Source of the DNA: Denitrobaculum tricleocarpae
Lineage (GTDB): Bacteria; Pseudomonadota; Alphaproteobacteria; Kiloniellales; Kiloniellaceae
Direction: 5' to 3'
Assembly (NCBI RefSeq): GCF_007004665.1
Contig: NZ_ML660052.1
Coordinates: 868,001 to 932,000 of the forward strand
DNA length: 64,000 bases
Shown: in pieces, positions 5,827 to 22,076 of the stretch
Layout: the number at the start of each line of letters is the position of its first letter
How positions within the stretch are numbered: the stretch's first letter is position 1
Notes under the pieces: generated by a model
What the model was told of the DNA's origin: nothing
Databases searched by the model: none
Seen by the model: the letters and a program-made list of their open reading frames with translations, nothing else
Made by a program: the position numbers and the translations under genes

Positions 5827-7323
5827 ATGGATGTTCTTCTCACCGCTATCGATCTGGTCTTCACGCCTTACGTTCTGATGGTCATGCTTGGGGCGGCGCT
5901 CTTCGGTCTCTTTGTCGGCTCGATTCCCGGCCTGACGGCGACCATGGCGACCGCGCTCCTGATCCCGATCACCTTTTTCATGGATCCGGTGCCTGCCATC
6001 GCAGCGATCGTGACGACTGTCGCTATGGCGATCTTCGCCGGCGACATCCCGGGCTGTCTGCTGCGCATCCCCGGCACCCCGGCCTCCGCCGCCTATGCGG
6101 ACGAAGCCCACGCCCTGACCGCAAAGGGGCAGGCGGAGAAGGCCCTGGGCACGAGCCTGGTTTGCGCGGTGATCGGCGGCCTGCTCGGTACGTTGGTGCT
6201 GGCCACCACTGCACCGTTGCTGGCGGAATTCGCCATTCAGTTCAGCTCTTTCGAGTACTTCTGGCTGGCCTGCCTCGGTTTGAGCTGTGCGGTGATGATC
6301 TCCACCGGGTCTGTCCTGAAAGGCGCGGTTTCACTGTTGATCGGGCTCTTCATCTCGACCATCGGGATCGACATCACCGCCGGTCATCCGCGCTTTACCT
6401 TTGGCTCGGTGGAGATGATGGGCGGGATCTCCTTCATCCCGGCGATGATCGGCATGTTCGCGGTCTCGGAGGTTCTGCGCTACGTGGCATCCAGCCGCCA
6501 AAAGCCGCAGGTGCCTCAGCAATCGATCGGGAATGTCTTCCGGGGATTGGGGGCGATTCTGGGACGCTACAAGCTCAACCTTCTGCGCGGCGGTGCGATC
6601 GGGACGGCCATCGGGGTCCTGCCGGGGGCAGGGGCCGATATCGCCGCCTGGGTGGCCTACGCGGTCTCCAAGAGGTTCAGCCGTGAGCCGGAGAAGTTCG
6701 GCAGCGGCCATGTCGAGGGCCTGGTCGACAGCGGCAGCGCCAACAACGCCGGACTGAGCGGTGCCTGGGTGCCGGCGCTGGTGTTCGGCATCCCCGGCGA
6801 CTCCATCACCGCCATCGTCATCGGGGTTCTCTACATGAAGGGAATGAACCCGGGACCGACGGTTTTTCTCAATCAGCCGGAACTGATCTATGCCGTCTTC
6901 GTGGCTTTCTTCCTGGCCAATCTGGCGCTTCTGCCGCTGGGATTTCTCGCGATCAGGCTGGCGCGGCAGGTCTTGCGCATGCCGCAGCCAATCCTGATGC
7001 CGATCATCCTGATGTTCTGCATCGTCGGTGCCTTCGCCATCAACAATACGGTCTTCGGCATCTCGATCATGCTGGTTCTGGGTCTGCTGGCCTACATTAT
7101 GGAAGAAAACGGCTTTCCAATTGCGCCGACCATCCTGGGCATCGTGCTGGGGACCATGCTCGAGGACAACTTCATGTCTTCCATGATCAAAGCAGACGGC
7201 GATCTTCTGGGTTTCTTCTCGCGCCCGATCGCGTTGTTCCTTGGAATCATGACACTCTGTATCTGGTTTCTGCCGCCCGTAATCCGTGCCCTGCGCAAGC
7301 GGTCGCAGCGGTTTTCGCAGTAG
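5827..7323 (+). CDS. tctA: Tripartite tricarboxylate transporter large permease TctA
   Basis: A 498-residue polytopic permease with the TctA family (DUF112) signatures: the N-terminal GSIPGLTATMATALLIPITF near residues 31-50, the PGTPASAAYADEAHAL loop near residues 83-100, and a second PGAGADIAAWVAYAVSKRFS segment near residues 267-287. The two related halves reflect the internal duplication known for this family. It is the main translocating subunit of the TTT system, using the periplasmic TctC protein to capture substrate. The tctCBA order is standard. The operon ends here; glpR begins 122 bp later. Confidence 0.93.
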   Translation: MDVLLTAIDLVFTPYVLMVMLGAALFGLFVGSIPGLTATMATALLIPITFFMDPVPAIAAIVTTVAMAIFAGDIPGCLLRIPGTPASAAYADEAHALTAKGQAEKALGTSLVCAVIGGLLGTLVLATTAPLLAEFAIQFSSFEYFWLACLGLSCAVMISTGSVLKGAVSLLIGLFISTIGIDITAGHPRFTFGSVEMMGGISFIPAMIGMFAVSEVLRYVASSRQKPQVPQQSIGNVFRGLGAILGRYKLNLLRGGAIGTAIGVLPGAGADIAAWVAYAVSKRFSREPEKFGSGHVEGLVDSGSANNAGLSGAWVPALVFGIPGDSITAIVIGVLYMKGMNPGPTVFLNQPELIYAVFVAFFLANLALLPLGFLAIRLARQVLRMPQPILMPIILMFCIVGAFAINNTVFGISIMLVLGLLAYIMEENGFPIAPTILGIVLGTMLEDNFMSSMIKADGDLLGFFSRPIALFLGIMTLCIWFLPPVIRALRKRSQRFSQ

Positions 7324-7361
7324 CTGATGTTTAGAGAAGGCGCCTTGCGCAGCGGACAGAA

Positions 7362-7377
7362 TTTTCGGATTCGAAAA
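7362..7377. promoter_or_regulatory. Candidate GlpR operator upstream of glpR
   Basis: The palindrome ttttcg-gatt-cgaaaa has perfect 6-bp arms and a 4-base spacer, 84 bp before the glpR start. Its left half, attttcggatt, resembles attttcgatt before glpD, consistent with a shared DeoR-family repressor and autoregulation. This is inference from sequence similarity. Confidence 0.5.
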
Positions 7378-7445
7378 ACATCACCAATGTGTATATCTTT
7401 ACTGCCACTATTTTACAGACCCTTCATAGATGAAAATCGGTCCAT

Positions 7446-8216
7446 ATGTTGAACCTGAGCCAGCGTCAGCAACGCATTCTGGAAGTCGTCCGAAAGGAGG
7501 GCTTCGTCGCGATCGAATCTCTGGCGCAGCTCTTCGACGTGACGGCGCAAACGATCCGCAGCGACGTCAACCAACTCAGCGAGATGTCGCTGCTGCGGCG
7601 TTATCACGGCGGGGTCGGTCTGTCGTCTTCGGTCGAGAACGAATCCTACGACAGCCGGCAGATCAAGAGCCTGAATGAGAAGCGGCGGATCGCGGCGGCG
7701 CTGGTCAAGCACATCCCCGCGCAGGCGTCGCTCTTTATCAACATCGGCACGACGACCGAGGAAATCGCCAAGGCACTGCTCAATCACCGTGACCTGCGGA
7801 TCATCACGAACAACCTCAACGTTGCCCGGATTCTGGCGGCTAATCCCAGTTTCGAGGTGATCATCGCGGGCGGTGTGGTGCGCAGCCGGGATCAGGGAAT
7901 CACCGGCGAGGCGACGATCGACTTCATCAATCAGTTCAAGGTGGATTTCGGGATTATCGGAATTTCGGGCATCGACAACGATGGGACGTTGCTCGACTTC
8001 GATTACCGCGAAGTGCGGGTGGCCAAGGCCATTATCCAGAATTCCCGCGCGGTCTTTATGGCGGCGGACACTACCAAGTTCGGCCGTAATGCCATGGTCC
8101 GCCTGGGCCATGTCTCGCAGATCGACGCCCTCTTCACCGACCGGCGCCCCGACAAGGAAATGTGTGCGATCCTGAAGGAAGCGGACGTGACTCTGCATAT
8201 TGCCGACTCCGTTTAA
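7446..8216 (+). CDS. glpR: DeoR-family repressor of glycerol-3-phosphate genes
   Basis: A 256-residue DeoR-type regulator. The N-terminal helix-turn-helix lies at about residues 5-58 (FDVTAQTIRSDVNQLSEMSLLRRYHGG), and the DeoRC sensor domain (NIGTTTEEIAKALL, near residue 100) binds a sugar-phosphate-like ligand, here presumably glycerol 3-phosphate. Its place directly upstream of glpD and the glpSTPQV transporter, on the same strand, matches glpR in rhizobial glp regions. It probably represses glpD and the transporter in the absence of glycerol 3-phosphate. Start: the ATG at 7446 fits the conserved LSQRQQRILEVV opening. Confidence 0.9.
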   Translation: MLNLSQRQQRILEVVRKEGFVAIESLAQLFDVTAQTIRSDVNQLSEMSLLRRYHGGVGLSSSVENESYDSRQIKSLNEKRRIAAALVKHIPAQASLFINIGTTTEEIAKALLNHRDLRIITNNLNVARILAANPSFEVIIAGGVVRSRDQGITGEATIDFINQFKVDFGIIGISGIDNDGTLLDFDYREVRVAKAIIQNSRAVFMAADTTKFGRNAMVRLGHVSQIDALFTDRRPDKEMCAILKEADVTLHIADSV

Positions 8217-16331: not shown

Positions 16332-17303
16332 GTGTCCGACAAAACCCTGCATCCCATCTGTGCATTTGACATCGGTCCGGACGGTCAGGCGGTTCTGCTG
16401 GAGGAACCCTGGCCGGATGCGGCTTCAGCCATTTCGGACGGCTACCGTTGGCTGCACTTCGACCTTACCGATCCGGCGCTTGAGGCATGGACCGATGAAA
16501 AGCTCCCGCCCGTCGCAGCCTATGCGTTGCGTCAGAGCGAAACGCGTCCCCGCTGCGATGTCTTCGAGGATGGCGTCCTGCTGAATCTCCGCGGCGTCAA
16601 TCTCAATCCGGGCAACGATCCGGAGGACATGGTGTCCTTGCGTCTCTGGGTGCGGCCCGGGCTGATCGTGACTGCGCGCCTCCGAAAGCTCTGGGCTGTC
16701 GATGCCCTTCGCAAGGCGATCGACGCGGGCAAGGCGCCGGTTGCTATCGCCGATTTTCTGAATCTCCTGACCTATGAGCTGAGCAAGCGGATCGAGCGGG
16801 TATCGCTGGATCTGGAGGAGGAAACCGATGCGCTCGAAGAGAAATTGCTGGGCGAGTCATCCGGGCTGAGCGGCGAGCTTGTGATTTTGCGGCAAAGCGT
16901 CATCAAGCTGCGCCGTTTTGTCCGACCGCAGTGCGAGGCCCTGAACGACCTCTCTCAATGGCAGAGTGCTTTGCTCGATCAGGGCCACAGCGACCTGTTG
17001 CGGGAGACGGCGAACCGGGCAACCCGGACGATCGAAGCCCTGGATGCCATCTCCGAACGGCTGACCGCCATGCAGGACCATCTTGAGACCCGTCATGCCT
17101 CTGCCCTGGGGCGCAACAGCTATATCCTGTCGGTCGCCGCGGCCATATTCCTGCCTCTGGGTTTCCTGACCGGGCTCTTCGGCATCAACGTAGGGGGGAT
17201 GCCGGGTGTGGACTCGCCCTATGGTTTTGCGGTCGTCACCATCGCTTCCTGTGTGATCGGTGTTTTGCTTTTCGTCGTTTTCAGACTTCGCAAGTGGCTG
17301 TGA
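16332..17303 (+). CDS. zntB: CorA-family zinc transporter (ZntB-like)
   Basis: A 323-residue CorA-superfamily protein with a large N-terminal cytoplasmic domain, a long helical region and two C-terminal membrane helices (about 263-285 and 295-315). The loop signature is GINVGGMPG, the GxN form with GG typical of ZntB rather than the GMN of magnesium CorA. ZntB proteins move zinc across the inner membrane, with reported proton coupling. A GTG start at 16332 follows gaggacgga. It converges on the MscS gene with a 3-bp gap, so it is its own transcription unit. Confidence 0.85.
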   Translation: MSDKTLHPICAFDIGPDGQAVLLEEPWPDAASAISDGYRWLHFDLTDPALEAWTDEKLPPVAAYALRQSETRPRCDVFEDGVLLNLRGVNLNPGNDPEDMVSLRLWVRPGLIVTARLRKLWAVDALRKAIDAGKAPVAIADFLNLLTYELSKRIERVSLDLEEETDALEEKLLGESSGLSGELVILRQSVIKLRRFVRPQCEALNDLSQWQSALLDQGHSDLLRETANRATRTIEALDAISERLTAMQDHLETRHASALGRNSYILSVAAAIFLPLGFLTGLFGINVGGMPGVDSPYGFAVVTIASCVIGVLLFVVFRLRKWL

Positions 17304-17306
17304 CAG

Positions 17307-18158
17307 TTATTTAGCGACTTGAGCGGTGCTGAGAGGAATCACATCGCTGCCGATCGCGTCGAGAAAGCCTGCCGTGATCAACTTTTCCAGCGCGAAGACC
17401 TCCTTCTTCGGACAAAAAAGCGAGATGCGGAAGACCGTCCGGCCCAGATCGCTTGTGCCCAGGCTGATGCTGGCTTCCGGGCCTTGAATGTCGACGCCGA
17501 GTTTCTTCTCAGCCATCGCGTTACTGCGCTTTGCGGCTTCAAGAAAGGGCTCGCAGAGCTGATCCGACTTGGTTTGCAGCCAGTGCAGCGCCATGGCGAC
17601 ATTGACACGGGTTTCGAGCGTAATGTCGAAACTGTGCAGGGCGAAGGACGGCGAGAAGTTTTCGTTCCGGACCGGATGCTGCAGAAAAACGCTGTTTGGC
17701 AGAACCACGGTCCGGCCGCTGTAGCCGTCACCTTGTGAAGCGGGCGCAAGTTCCAGAAGGGTCGTCGACAGCACGCTGTGATCCGTCACTTCACCTCGAA
17801 TGCCGTCGACTTCAACTCTGTCGCCAATCGAGAAGACGCTCGCCCCGGTTCGGAGCACGAAGCCGCTGATACACATCAGCAGCTCTTTGGTCGCGATGAC
17901 AATGGCGACGGTTACGGCGGTCAGGGAGAGCAGCAGGTTCTGCAGCTGCCCAAGCCAGATGACCAGCAGGCCGATCACCAGAAGCGCGCTGAGAGCGCTG
18001 CGTGTGTAAAAGAGTTGGCGCCGCTGGTCTTCCTGAAGCACGTCCGCGCCCCGGCGGATCAGGCGGAACAACAACAGGCGCAGAGCCGCGACCAGCAACA
18101 ACAGCGCGACCGTGACCAGTCCGCGCACAATCAGGGGATCGTTCAGGAGCGTCGTCAT
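17307..18158 (-). CDS. MscS-type mechanosensitive channel
   Basis: A 283-residue membrane protein. Hydrophobic segments lie at about residues 10-30, 50-72 and 75-105, followed by the MscS beta domain (SIGDRVEVDGIRGEVTDHSVLSTTLLEL at about 110-138; VVLPNSVFLQHPVRN at about 149-163) and a C-terminal alpha/beta part. The gating helix lacks the classical glycine-alanine pattern, so conductance properties may differ. It begins 27 bp after the AstE-like gene and is probably the last gene of the RimK operon, which suggests a link between that pathway and osmotic or turgor control. Confidence 0.82.
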   Translation of the reverse strand: MTTLLNDPLIVRGLVTVALLLLVAALRLLLFRLIRRGADVLQEDQRRQLFYTRSALSALLVIGLLVIWLGQLQNLLLSLTAVTVAIVIATKELLMCISGFVLRTGASVFSIGDRVEVDGIRGEVTDHSVLSTTLLELAPASQGDGYSGRTVVLPNSVFLQHPVRNENFSPSFALHSFDITLETRVNVAMALHWLQTKSDQLCEPFLEAAKRSNAMAEKKLGVDIQGPEASISLGTSDLGRTVFRISLFCPKKEVFALEKLITAGFLDAIGSDVIPLSTAQVAK

Positions 18159-18185
18159 AGGCTCTACCTTGAGGTGTCGTCGATC

Positions 18186-19232
18186 TTATATGATTTCATC
18201 CTCGTCGAAGAGGGGATCTTCGTTGAGCTGTGTCGTTAGGCTGTCGATCGTCGCTCCCGCGTCGTCGTTGCGTTTGAGCCGCGCGATGTGAAAAAGGCCG
18301 TCGCCCTCGTTGGCGACAGGCAGATTGCTGCGACCGATCACCAGGCCGTCCTCCTCGGCGAAGATTTCGCTATCCAGTTCGCCGAAGGGATCGGAGATGA
18401 TGCCCAGCACGTCGCCTTCTTCGACCTCGTCGCCGATAGTCTTGAAGGCGCGCAGCAGACCACCCGCCGGGGCGCGTTGCCAGAAGCTCGAGGAGGACTG
18501 GATCGGCGCGGCCTTCAGCTTCGTGATTCCGCGCGCCGGGATCATTTTCAGGTGATGCATGATGCGCAGAATGCCGGTCACCCCCGCGCGCACGGCGAAT
18601 TCGTCAAAGCGCAAACCCTCGCCGGCTTCATAGAGCAGGACATCGATGCCGAGGTCCTGTGCGGCCTGGCGCAGCGAACCGGGCCGGGTCTTTGACGTCA
18701 GCACCAGGGGCGCGCCAAAGACTTCGGCCAGTTCCATGGTTTCCGGTTTCGACGGCGTCACGCGGATCTGCGGCAGGTTGGTGCGGTGGATGGCGGCGGA
18801 GTGCAGATCTATCCCCACGTCCGAGCGCCCGACGATTTCCGTCATGAAGATATGTGCAAGGCGGGAGGCGAGGGAGCCTTGCGGGCTGCCCGGGAAAACC
18901 CGGTTGAGGTCGCGGCGGTCGGGCAAGTAGCGCGAATGGTTCATGAAGCCGTAGGCGTTCACGATCGGAATGGCGAGTAACGTACCTTTCAGCTTGTCGA
19001 GGCTTGGCGCGCGTAAAAGCCGCCGGACAATCTCGACTCCGATGATTTCATCGCCATGTATCGCGGCACTGACGAAGAGCGTCGGCCCGGGGCGACGTCC
19101 ATGGGCCACATGAACCGACATGGAAACCGGCGTGTGATCCGACAGAACGCTGACTGGGAGATCAACGGTTCGCCGGGTGCCCGCCGGCACCCGGTGCTTG
19201 CCGATCTGAAACGCCGATTGGTCCGGCATCAA
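18186..19232 (-). CDS. Succinylglutamate desuccinylase/aspartoacylase-family zinc hydrolase
   Basis: A 348-residue M14-like metallohydrolase of the AstE/AspA family. The zinc ligands are visible: HGDE (His59, Glu62) and IDLHS (His144), the substrate-binding arginine segment DLNRVFPG (108-115), and a catalytic glutamate in YEAGEG (201-206). The C-terminal domain (about 250-348) resembles a biotinyl/lipoyl-like beta barrel common in this subgroup. Family members remove acyl or glutamate-like groups from alpha-amines. The start overlaps the rimK stop by 4 bp, so it is translationally coupled to RimK and may reverse, trim or recycle its product. The substrate is unknown. Confidence 0.85.
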
Positions 19233-20134
19233 CCCTTGCCCTTGGTTTTGGTCTTACCCGGTTTGGCCTGCTTTTCCATCAGCTCAATGACCTTCCCGGC
19301 GACGTCGATGCCCGTGGCTCTCTCGACCCCCTCCAGGCCCGGTGAGGAATTGACCTCCATGACCACGGGACCGTGATTGGAGCGCAGCATATCGACACCG
19401 CAGACGTTCAGGCCCATGGCCTTCGCCGAGCGGATGGCGGTGGAGCGTTCCTCCGGCGAGATCTTGATCATCTGGGCGCTGCCGCCACGATGCAGGTTGG
19501 AGCGGAAATCACCCTCTGCGCCCTGGCGCTGCATGGCGGCCACGACCTTGCCGCCGACCACCAGCGCGCGGATGTCGGTGCCACCGGCTTCCTTGATGAA
19601 CTCCTGCACCAGAATGTTGACCTTCGCGCCCCGAAAAGCCTCGATCACGGACTTGGCCGAACGATCACTGTCCGCGAGGACCACGCCGATCCCCTGGGTG
19701 CCTTCCAGGAGCTTGATCACAAGCGGGGCACCACCGGCCAGCTCCAAGACTTCCTCGGTCTGCTTTGGATCATGGGCGAAGGTCGTGACGGGCAGGCCGA
19801 TGCCTTCGCGGGAGAGGATCTGCAGTGATCGCAGCTTGTCCCGCGACCGGCCGATGGCAACGGATTCGTTCAGGGGATAAACCCCCATGACCTCGAACTG
19901 GCGTAACACCGCCAGGCCATAATAGGTGACCGAAGCGCCGATCCGCGGGATGACGGCGTCGTAGTGCTGCAGCTTCTCGCCGTTGTAGTAGATCGCGGGA
20001 CGGCGCGAGGCGATATTCATATAGCATCGCAGGGTATTGATGATATCCAGCTCGTGCCCGCGTTCCTCGGCCGCCTCTTTCAGGCGCCGGTGAGAATAGA
20101 GATCCGGATTTCGTGCCATCATCGCGATTTTCAT
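19229..20134 (-). CDS. rimK: RimK-type ATP-grasp glutamate ligase
   Basis: A 301-residue protein collinear with E. coli RimK, which adds glutamates to the C-terminus of ribosomal protein S6 and can make poly-alpha-glutamate. The opening ([18 protein letters not shown], and LRCYMNI near residue 35) is the RimK-specific N-domain; the ATP-grasp core includes [15 protein letters not shown] (about 136-150), [20 protein letters not shown] and the metal site [13 protein letters not shown] (about 261-273). The C-terminal tail is lysine-rich ([11 protein letters not shown]). It starts 4 bp after the RimB-like gene and overlaps the AstE-like gene. The target in this organism is not known. Confidence 0.9.
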
Positions 20135-20138
20135 TTTT

Positions 20139-20717
20139 TTAGCTCCCTGTCTGGAGGTGGTTTGCGCGAGACGTCTTGCGCGGTCGCGGCCGTTTGATTG
20201 CGGTGTCTGCTTTCTTGTCGGATTGATCGGGCTTGTCGGATTGATCGGGGGAGGCCCCGCCGGGCGGGCCCACCAGGAATGACTTTCCTGGATCGACCAG
20301 CAGCTTTCTTCTGCGCACGGCGGTTCGGCCCAGAATCAGGTCGAATTCCATTTTTTCCCGATCCGCAAGCGACACTTCCATATGCCAATGACGTTTCCCG
20401 AACACCAGAAGGGTCTCGATCACATAGCGGTCTTCGGGAACGCCGCTGGTGTTCTTGATTTGCCGCTCATCCACCAGACGGGCGCTGCAGCGCTCGGATC
20501 TGGGCTTGCCGGGCTGCGGAACGTGAAACTCGATCCAATGCATGCCGTCTTTCTCGAAGACGCGGAGATCAACTGCGTGCAAGGCGGATGTCCGAGCACC
20601 GGTATCGATCTTGGCCCGCAAGGCGGAGATTCCAAGCTCGGGCAGGCCCACCATCTCGCGCCAGCCGATGATCTGTCTTTCACGGGGTTTGGGTTTCTGG
20701 CGCTGCAGGTTTTTCAT
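20139..20717 (-). CDS. rimB: RimB-like retropepsin-fold protease (Zn_protease family)
   Basis: A 192-residue protein of the family long annotated ATP-dependent zinc protease, which is really a retropepsin-like aspartic protease fold. The catalytic loop reads [13 protein letters not shown], with DTGA at residues 38-41; a second conserved strand, [13 protein letters not shown], lies near residue 150. Pseudomonas RimB, encoded beside rimK, belongs to this family and acts on the RimK/S6 system, supporting the symbol. The last 40 residues are low-complexity, charged and contain a [12 protein letters not shown] repeat from an 18-bp DNA duplication. Its start overlaps the upstream small gene (ATGA). 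Confidence 0.82.
20214..20249. repeat. 18-bp perfect tandem duplication in the rimB 3' end
   Basis: The unit cttgtcggattgatcggg occurs twice in succession, at 20214-20231 and 20232-20249. It keeps the reading frame and duplicates six residues of the disordered tail. Confidence 0.9.
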
Positions 20718-21001
20718 GGCAGGACATCTTCGTTCGCACGGCGGTAGTTCACAAAGCTATTGGCCCCCATCACCACAAAGAAACTCTCCATGTCGATGAG
20801 AACATAGCCGCGCTCGAACATCTCACGGGTCAATGTGCGAATGTCGTCTTCGTAAAGGCGGCGCCGGCCGGCGAGTTGGCGGACCAGCTTCGTGGGGATG
20901 CGGTATCTGCCCTTGGCCTTGCCGCCAAAGGACTCGCTGTAAAGCATAGCGAGCCTGTCAGCGGTGTCGGCGAACGGCGTCCGGGTCGGAGTCATTCTCA
21001 T
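20714..21001 (-). CDS. Small conserved-type protein heading the RimK operon
   Basis: A soluble protein of 95 residues from this ATG (one more ATG two codons on, and a longer form from 21046 with an unlikely N-terminus). The core YSESFGGKAKGRYRIPTKLVRQLAGRRRLYEDDIRTL, then EMFERGYVLIDMESFFVVMG, has a regular helix-turn-helix-like basic section and a hydrophobic C-terminal strand. I do not recognise a named family. It overlaps rimB by 4 bp and is the first gene of the operon, so it may be the positional counterpart of RimA in Pseudomonas rimABK or a DNA- or RNA-binding partner; both are guesses. Confidence 0.7.
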   Translation of the reverse strand: MRMTPTRTPFADTADRLAMLYSESFGGKAKGRYRIPTKLVRQLAGRRRLYEDDIRTLTREMFERGYVLIDMESFFVVMGANSFVNYRRANEDVLP

Positions 21002-21115: not shown

Positions 21116-21179
21116 ACACTGTTATTAAAAATTTACCTATAGCAAAATTTTTTTTGCCTATTCAAATTTTTAATAGTGT
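21116..21179. terminator. AT-rich double hairpin, probable terminator
   Basis: Outer arms at 21116-21134 and 21164-21179 pair over 16 bases, with a 3-base gtt bulge on the left. Inside is gcaaaa-tttt-ttttgc. The element is very AT-rich against a GC-rich genome. It lies 15 bp past the end of the minus-strand gene that follows and upstream of the RimK operon, so it likely ends the former. The outer arm then serves as a U-rich tail on either strand. Confidence 0.5.
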
Positions 21180-21194: not shown

Positions 21195-21833
21195 TTAACC
21201 GAACAGGTTTGCTTCTTCGCATTCTTCCAGCTTGACGTCCGAGGCGGCTGCAATGGTCTTGAGTGTCGTTGTGAAGCCATCAATAGCCTGCGGATTCCGG
21301 GCATAAACCCCGGCCACGCAGCCGTCCACGCCGGGTAAAACGCAAGCGGCGGCGCCGTGCGACCAAAGTGTCTCCAAGGGTGCCAGCTTTTGTGTACCGA
21401 TCGATGCCAGCAACTGCGCCCGCTCCGGCTCGAAGGAGATGGCGGGTGGGATCAGCAGAGCAATCTGCCCGCGTTGGCTCCAGCAAAAGCCCATCGCGTC
21501 GAACAGCCTTTCGGCTCTTGCCGCATCGCCGCTGCGAAGAAGCCAGGCATCTTGGGGCCGCCCGGTGAGGCGCCGCCAGATATTCTCTGGCCACGCCCGA
21601 AGACCGGGCGTGAGACGGCGGCTTTCGACGCCGGAAAGCTCCTCTCCGCCAAGCCAGGCGACGTCATGGCCGGAAGTCATGCTCCGGCAAAGCAGGTTTT
21701 GAACCGTTCCGGGCACCGCTTCATCTTCGCATCCGGGAATTTCGGGCCATGCGATCAACAGGCGCGGGCCGTCGATGGGCAGCTCCCACTGCTTTTCAGC
21801 GAAGTCCCTGCAGATGGAAAGACGGGTTGTCAT
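21195..21833 (-). CDS. Hypothetical protein, unrecognised family
   Basis: A soluble protein of 212 residues from the ATG at 21833 (a longer frame to 21875 is possible). It starts MTTRLSICRDFAEKQW and contains no membrane segment or motif I can assign. Four cysteines near the middle (LLCRSM, GFCWSQ, AAACVLPGVDGC) and a final ECEEANLFG stand out. Codon composition matches neighbouring genes, supporting a real gene. It stands alone between the RimK operon and the divergent glutathione transferase. The AT-rich hairpin just downstream suits a terminator. Confidence 0.6.
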   Translation of the reverse strand: MTTRLSICRDFAEKQWELPIDGPRLLIAWPEIPGCEDEAVPGTVQNLLCRSMTSGHDVAWLGGEELSGVESRRLTPGLRAWPENIWRRLTGRPQDAWLLRSGDAARAERLFDAMGFCWSQRGQIALLIPPAISFEPERAQLLASIGTQKLAPLETLWSHGAAACVLPGVDGCVAGVYARNPQAIDGFTTTLKTIAAASDVKLEECEEANLFG

Positions 21834-22076
21834 CACGATATCCGGAAGAACAGGCGTTTGGGCGAGGCTTCGCATTGACCCTGACGCGTTGCTGCCTTGA
21901 ATGCTATCCCAGTCTGTATCAGTCGTGCGGAGGGTCCGATTGGTTCATTGGGACGAGAATTAAAAATGCGGCCTCTCTCCGAAAAAGCTTTGCATCCGGC
22001 GCGAAGGTGGATTTCCCTGTTCCCGAGTCCTCAGCCTCCGATTCTTCGGCCGGAAATCAGAACGGAAACGACAGCA

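Follow-up and report, generated by a model that had tools for sequence, protein, structure and literature searches.

A conserved orfA-rimB-rimK-astE unit of Alphaproteobacteria, its recurring cation-transporter and channel neighbours, and a possible polyglutamate function

Conservation of the four-gene unit

In a 64,000-nucleotide stretch of Denitrobaculum tricleocarpae (contig NZ_ML660052.1, positions 868,001 to 932,000; this whole stretch is called the window), a rim locus was examined in which orfA, a small gene of an undescribed family, precedes the genes for a RimB-type protease, the glutamate ligase RimK and an AstE-like zinc hydrolase. These four genes are a conserved unit, orfA-rimB-rimK-astE, whose order is kept beyond chance, and genes for cation transporters and MscS-type channels recur beside it in relatives. 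The cation-transporter link (MgtE, CorA-family) and an operator-like palindrome at these loci are both additions to an earlier, sequence-only reading of the same DNA. We propose that the locus is a polyglutamate writer/eraser Rim system under OrfA and tied to cations and turgor, a proposal on which our own judgement is evenly divided.

The sequence-only reading had placed a writer (RimK), a RimB-type protease and an AstE-like hydrolase in one unit, and these genes proved to be co-inherited, rimB being present in 70, rimK in 69 and astE in 65 of 71 orfA loci. The 71 loci were collected by searching genome contigs with an orfA alignment and one peptide pattern from the conserved end of OrfA, which favours close relatives; by their titles nearly all are from Alphaproteobacteria, with one metagenome-assembled genome labelled Woeseiaceae, and several of these loci (L numbers) are from the same genomes as those given G numbers, so the locus sets overlap. 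When 58 genomes including the window's own were searched, orfA was found in 17 and adjoined rimB and rimK in 16 of them, the 17th match (G030) being partial and near astE. The small first gene that had been pointed out in the window is thus a real conserved extra gene. In an even sample of 385 genomes of the class, orfA was present in 15 and rimK in 67, with 12 carrying the two together (Fisher p 9e-8). Of the three that have orfA but no rimK, G072 has a distant homologue, in G361 the contig ends, and G138 keeps only remnants of rimK and astE. In G138 (L105, about 7200-8150) an open orfA frame is retained beside these remnants, and OrfA may outlive the rim genes or act without them. In G072 (L106) the OrfA homologue has 29% identity, and rim or channel genes were not found within 16 kb.

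RimK is found far more often than OrfA, in 150 of 398 Pseudomonadota at E 1e-80. Among 29 new loci from the best 30 of a phylum-wide Pseudomonadota rimK search, astE followed rimK on the same strand in 19, and in 20 non-alphaproteobacterial rimK loci, chosen from 20 different families, astE was in the stretch in 14 and rimB in 16. The linkage of Rim and AstE is thus widespread, and OrfA is the marker of a subset. As to the earlier claim that AstE and MscS go beyond the rimABK operon, the Rim-AstE linkage is not special here, and MscS-type channels recur as a class. At one locus (L129, 10755-11271) a second RimB-type protease gene lies immediately after astE.

Organization of the locus in the window

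Five genes lie on one strand, the minus strand, and all the overlaps and gaps given for them in the sequence-only reading were borne out: orfA and rimB overlap by 4 bp, rimB and rimK are 4 bp apart, rimK and astE overlap by 4 bp and astE is 27 bp from the MscS gene. The features are as follows.

20714..20995, minus strand: orfA, 93 amino acids, undescribed family, predicted winged helix, probable local regulator
20139..20717, minus strand: RimB-type retropepsin-like aspartic protease (PF05618) with a low-complexity C-terminal tail
19229..20134, minus strand: RimK, ATP-grasp alpha-L-glutamate ligase
18186..19232, minus strand: AstE/aspartoacylase-like zinc hydrolase (PF24827), proposed carboxypeptidase-like trimmer of glutamate chains
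17307..18158, minus strand: MscS-family channel (PF00924), lineage-specific
16332..17303, plus strand: CorA-family (ZntB-like) divalent cation transporter (PF01544)
21132..21163, minus strand: operator-like pair of half-sites, CTATAGGTAAA and ATAGGCAAA, upstream of orfA

An alternative start of orfA, the ATG at 21001, would give 95 amino acids. The CorA-family gene is convergent with the MscS gene, their stops being 3 bp apart; its product scores 203.6 bits with PF01544 and 184.6 with NCBIfam ZntB, below the cut-off of 292. Upstream of orfA on the same strand is an open reading frame (21195-21875) for which no Pfam or NCBIfam match was found; it is kept in two genomes of the same genus (53 and 85% identity) at differing distances from orfA.

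Cation transporters and channels at rim loci

The fifth gene of the window is not a conserved member of the unit. Its product has an MscS beta-domain that scores 29.9 bits with PF00924 (cut-off 20.2), the weakest of eight in the genome, and no homologue was found in 10 relatives searched, three of the same genus among them. Five good homologues (29-38% identity) were found elsewhere in the 385 class genomes, besides ten weaker ones (E 1e-7 to 1e-3); the neighbourhoods covered were those of the five, none of which has rim genes within 14 kb. Two of the five (G266, G355) adjoin a CorA-family gene. The MscS gene was therefore rejected as a conserved fifth gene, and of the five-gene order proposed earlier only the first four genes are kept beyond chance.

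What did recur was the class of function. Clustering of the neighbours in the 71 loci turned up channels unprompted, and Pfam named the sampled neighbours as MgtE, an MgtE_N-CBS protein, MscS types with PF05552 or PF00924 and CorA-family transporters. By hidden Markov model counts, at least one transporter or channel gene was near orfA in 44 of the 71 loci (MgtE in 37, CorA-family in 13, MscS types in 17), and in 31 of the 45 whose sequence extended 5 kb or more to each side. Such genes were present in 6 of 13 orfA stretches of the class sample, in 4 of 20 non-alphaproteobacterial rimK loci and in 6 of 35 alphaproteobacterial rimK loci without orfA (MgtE in 1), a set in which some contigs are short (two below 4 kb) and one locus is the second rimK copy in G007, an orfA-bearing genome; there were none in 20 rpsF control regions from rimK-bearing genomes of the order, the window's own included. 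With kinship ignored and some of the orfA-less contigs short, the Fisher test gave p 1e-7 for MgtE in 37 of 71 orfA loci versus 1 of 35 orfA-less loci, and p 4e-5 for relatives in the order (13 of 16 loci with orfA versus 1 of 15 without). The link to an osmotic channel suggested earlier thus recurs for the class, a cation transporter together with an MscS-type channel, and not for the particular MscS gene of the window.

The arrangements differ from locus to locus. MgtE is divergent from orfA in 28 loci, and in ten of these mgtE is on the same strand directly before rimB-rimK. An MscS-MgtEb-MgtE series lies on one strand upstream of orfA in G002 and downstream of astE in G028, G035, G047, G053 and G007; the same cassette lies between rimK and astE in L024, L026 and L076, the last without orfA; and CorA-MscS pairs stand before orfA or after astE in L119, L120, L128 and L132. 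Three MscS types occur at rim loci, namely the PF05552 type, the PF00924 type with a C-terminal domain and the type of the window. No magnesium riboswitch was found in ten loci at Rfam gathering scores. A Cobalamin riboswitch (127 bits; 14522-14733 of L024) downstream of a rim-channel cluster is probably unrelated.

An MgtE is encoded outside the rim locus in all 11 genomes searched, the window's own included, and where a second MgtE is present (six of the 11) it is located at the rim locus in every case. When 53 MgtEs were placed in a tree, those from rim loci of the divergent type (29 rows, support 99/97) grouped separately from those of the cassette type (10 rows, 100/99), ten other genomic copies (96/96) stood apart from both groups, and two rim-linked rows from outside the class, of gammaproteobacterial type, pair on long branches. 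Two rows with very long branches were disregarded, HK_G000 (wrong frame) and L076_11448 (doubtful). In this tree the rim-linked MgtEs are at least two clades distinct from the other genomic copies, and the out-of-class pair suggests that a third gain is probable, if not sure. That the same functions recur through different lineages speaks for a shared function more than inherited order does.

OrfA and the operator-like palindrome

The palindrome TTGTCTATAGACAA was present in 35 of the 71 orfA loci, though in no more than 5 of the 29 orfA stretches that make up an overlapping set, whereas it was found in none of the 35 alphaproteobacterial rimK loci without orfA and in none of the 20 rpsF controls. 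Where orfA and mgtE are divergent it lies between them in 19 of 28 loci. The full palindrome has no match with two or fewer mismatches within the window, which retains two half-sites, CTATAGGTAAA and ATAGGCAAA, 21 bp apart; in an alignment with G003, a genome of the same genus, they correspond to TATAGACAA and TATAGGCAA. The general form, a tandem half-site with 20-22 bp spacing, is only weakly enriched. From this distribution we infer that OrfA may bind the palindrome. A genome-wide OrfA regulon was rejected, as a degenerate palindrome gave 11 matches in 14 genomes and its backward control also gave 11; at the rim locus the degenerate matches were two sites, in G003 and G299.

No Pfam or NCBIfam family matched OrfA at E 0.1, and a search of PDB sequences with the orfA profile gave S100-type matches only (E 0.034 or worse), which were judged to be chance. 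AlphaFold2 predicted a compact fold in the order H-beta-H-H-beta-beta (H, helix), with a predicted local distance difference test score of 86.4 and a predicted template modelling score of 0.74. The prediction of a winged helix for this undescribed family makes a regulator more likely than the adaptor that the sequence-only reading had put forward, and OrfA is probably a local regulator of the rim locus. OrfA resembles uncharacterised Erwinia and Dickeya phage proteins in a viral structure library (Foldseek E about 1e-5 to 1e-4), and 13 of 14 members match PHROG 26231. OrfA is not RimA: the latter is an EAL phosphodiesterase in Pseudomonas (PMC11957791, PMC12239564), and OrfA has 93 amino acids and no Pfam match.

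The Rim enzymes, the AstE-like hydrolase and S6

The RimB-type protein scores 117.7 bits with PF05618 (cut-off 27), and D38 and G40 of its aspartic active-site motif DTG are at least 97% conserved in 42 sequences. With the NCBIfam RimB equivalog it reaches 128.6 bits, and because this is under the curated cut-off of 200, RimB-type is the safe name. Its C-terminal tail (window 20139-20290) is of low complexity; an SDKPDQ-like unit is repeated in it, and its end is basic. RimK scores 228.8 bits with PF08443 and passes the NCBIfam equivalog for S6-L-glutamate ligase (447 bits, cut-off 331); its best solved matches are 7qyr and 7qys, the former a chain from a Pseudomonas study (E 4e-138).

The AstE-like protein has an AstE/AspA catalytic domain (PF24827, 138.9 bits, cut-off 25) in which H59, E62, N110, R111, H144 and E202 are at least 97% conserved in 53 sequences. 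We take H59, E62 and H144, N110-R111, and E202 to be the zinc-binding, carboxylate-binding and catalytic positions expected of the M14-like superfamily. The equivalog for AstE itself, succinylglutamate desuccinylase, is not reached (24.9 bits, cut-off 305.65). We propose that the enzyme could be a carboxypeptidase-like trimmer of glutamate chains. Tubulin polyglutamylation, where an ATP-grasp writer (the TTLL ligases) is paired with a zinc carboxypeptidase eraser (CCP), offers an analogy to a RimK/AstE-like writer and eraser, with no membership claimed. Word searches of three Rim papers found no AstE-type partner, the main text of PMC11957791 containing none of 'AstE', 'desuccinylase' and 'mechanosensitive', and a limited literature search found no report linking AstE, MgtE or MscS to Rim; the work on ATP-grasp amidoligases by Iyer et al. 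(2009) may include an account of a RimK-protease-AstE neighbourhood.

In E. coli, RimK requires a terminal Glu. S6 was examined in 54 genomes, and its tails are mostly long and rich in Arg, Gly and Asp. Tails are identical between congeners that have rimK and those that lack it (G006 and G011; G017, G021 and G015), and among closed tails, counted by eye, Glu is the last residue in 11 of 27 from genomes with rimK (2 of 14 where orfA is also present) versus 12 of 25 from genomes that lack it. The tails do not track the presence of rimK and neither point to S6 as the acceptor nor exclude it, so S6, named earlier as a possible target, is left unsupported.

Proposed mechanism and alternatives

We propose that OrfA, a small winged-helix-like protein, would bind TTGTCTATAGACAA, or two spaced half-sites in the window, and would control the rim genes and, where they adjoin, the cation-transporter and mechanosensitive channel genes. 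Upon a drop in external salinity or magnesium, RimK would use ATP to make alpha-linked glutamate chains, either free or attached to an acceptor protein. Internal cuts in these chains would be made by the RimB-type protease, and the AstE-like zinc enzyme would trim them from the C-terminal end, while the neighbouring MgtE or CorA-family transporters and MscS-type channels would set the divalent-cation content and release turgor, so that polyanion and counter-ions would be adjusted jointly.

The channel partners at rim loci hint at a response to fresher water, and the earlier idea of a tie to turgor receives indirect support from reports on low salinity. We take K05844 to be rimK. In pairs of brackish and marine genomes, K05844, a mechanosensitive channel and K03284, described in that study as a magnesium uptake system, were commoner in brackish genomes (PMC10219603), and in Photobacterium damselae at low salt rimK was up 52-fold and an mgtE 5-fold (PMC10308900). 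The rlo retropepsin/ATP-grasp system of P. aeruginosa is needed in hypo-osmotic medium (PMC12239564). Against the tie to turgor stands the published deletion of rimB in P. aeruginosa, which has no hypo-osmotic phenotype (PMC12239564) and so weakens a simple transfer of the osmotic role from rlo to rim.

The known systems are each only partly alike. Pseudomonas rimABK/rimBK likewise encodes a RimB-type retropepsin and a RimK ligase together, and supplies the best matches 7qyr and 7qys, whereas the locus described here lacks the EAL phosphodiesterase RimA, has OrfA and an AstE-like hydrolase in addition, is accompanied by cation transporters and MscS-type channels in many relatives and has no support from S6 tails. 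P. aeruginosa rloABC shares a retropepsin and an ATP-grasp protein and has the hypo-osmotic phenotype, but a counterpart of RloB is absent among the five genes. The RimBK hybrid enzymes, mostly of Flavobacteriales and Rhodobacterales, unite the activities of RimB and RimK in a single unit (PMC11957791), whereas RimB and RimK are separate genes here.

In an ordinary Rim system RimK and RimB would tune the glutamates of S6 as in Pseudomonas, with astE and the channels as mere neighbours. The match of RimK to a Pseudomonas-study chain, its passing of the S6-ligase model and the published biochemistry of RimB and RimK on S6 (PMC11957791) agree with this, but the adjacency of astE is widespread, unrelated channel types keep recurring beside the locus, and S6 tails are the same in congeners with and without rimK and rarely end in Glu where orfA and rimK are both present; we regard the ordinary system as possible and, on balance, rather unlikely. 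A stronger form of our own proposal is that free poly-alpha-glutamate is the main product of RimK, an osmotically cheap, cation-binding glutamate store that RimB and AstE would depolymerise on a salinity upshift. It is favoured by the report that RimB, an endopeptidase on polyglutamate, also stimulates poly-alpha-glutamate synthesis by RimK (PMC11957791), by the discussion of glutamate-polyglutamate homeostasis and an osmolyte role in PMC12239564, by the unsupportive S6 tails and by the transporter linkage, but the activity of AstE on glutamate chains is itself a proposal, and we hold this form to be unlikely as it stands.

The AstE-like enzyme could also work in metabolism by deacylating an acylated amino acid or osmolyte, the operon then serving small-molecule degradation. 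Its best NCBIfam match is DoeB of ectoine degradation (69 bits), and deacetylase structures 6twl/6twm are among its PDB matches; the DoeB score is, however, far under the cut-off of 402.7, and astE accompanies rimB and rimK, being held by 65 of the 71 orfA loci, which makes this reading improbable to us. That OrfA might be a glutamate carrier or acceptor like LysW in the LysX system, and not a regulator, is suggested by its small size and by the RimK-family ligase and the hydrolase that are encoded next to it. Carriers of the LysW type have a conserved acidic C-terminus. The C-termini of OrfA differ in sequence and length and have no common acidic end, for which a LysW-like carrier was rejected, and the compact predicted fold and the palindrome between divergent orfA and mgtE also speak against it, so that we consider a carrier very improbable.

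Implications

The polyglutamate writer/eraser proposal can be put in a bolder form, as a turgor and cation-buffer valve. In fresher water RimK would condense glutamate to poly-alpha-glutamate, which would leave fewer osmotic particles while the charge that holds magnesium and potassium is kept; RimB and the AstE-like enzyme would release it, and OrfA would drive them together with dedicated MgtE or CorA-family and MscS-type channels. We offer this valve tentatively and think it unlikely to be right. A second magnesium-type channel gene, MscS-type channels and a probable regulator at one locus give RimK a concrete setting outside Pseudomonas, namely low salinity or low magnesium. The locus also offers a candidate operator and draws attention to OrfA and the AstE-like hydrolase, both of them uncharacterised, and with these the function of bacterial polyglutamylation would become testable in easily grown marine bacteria.

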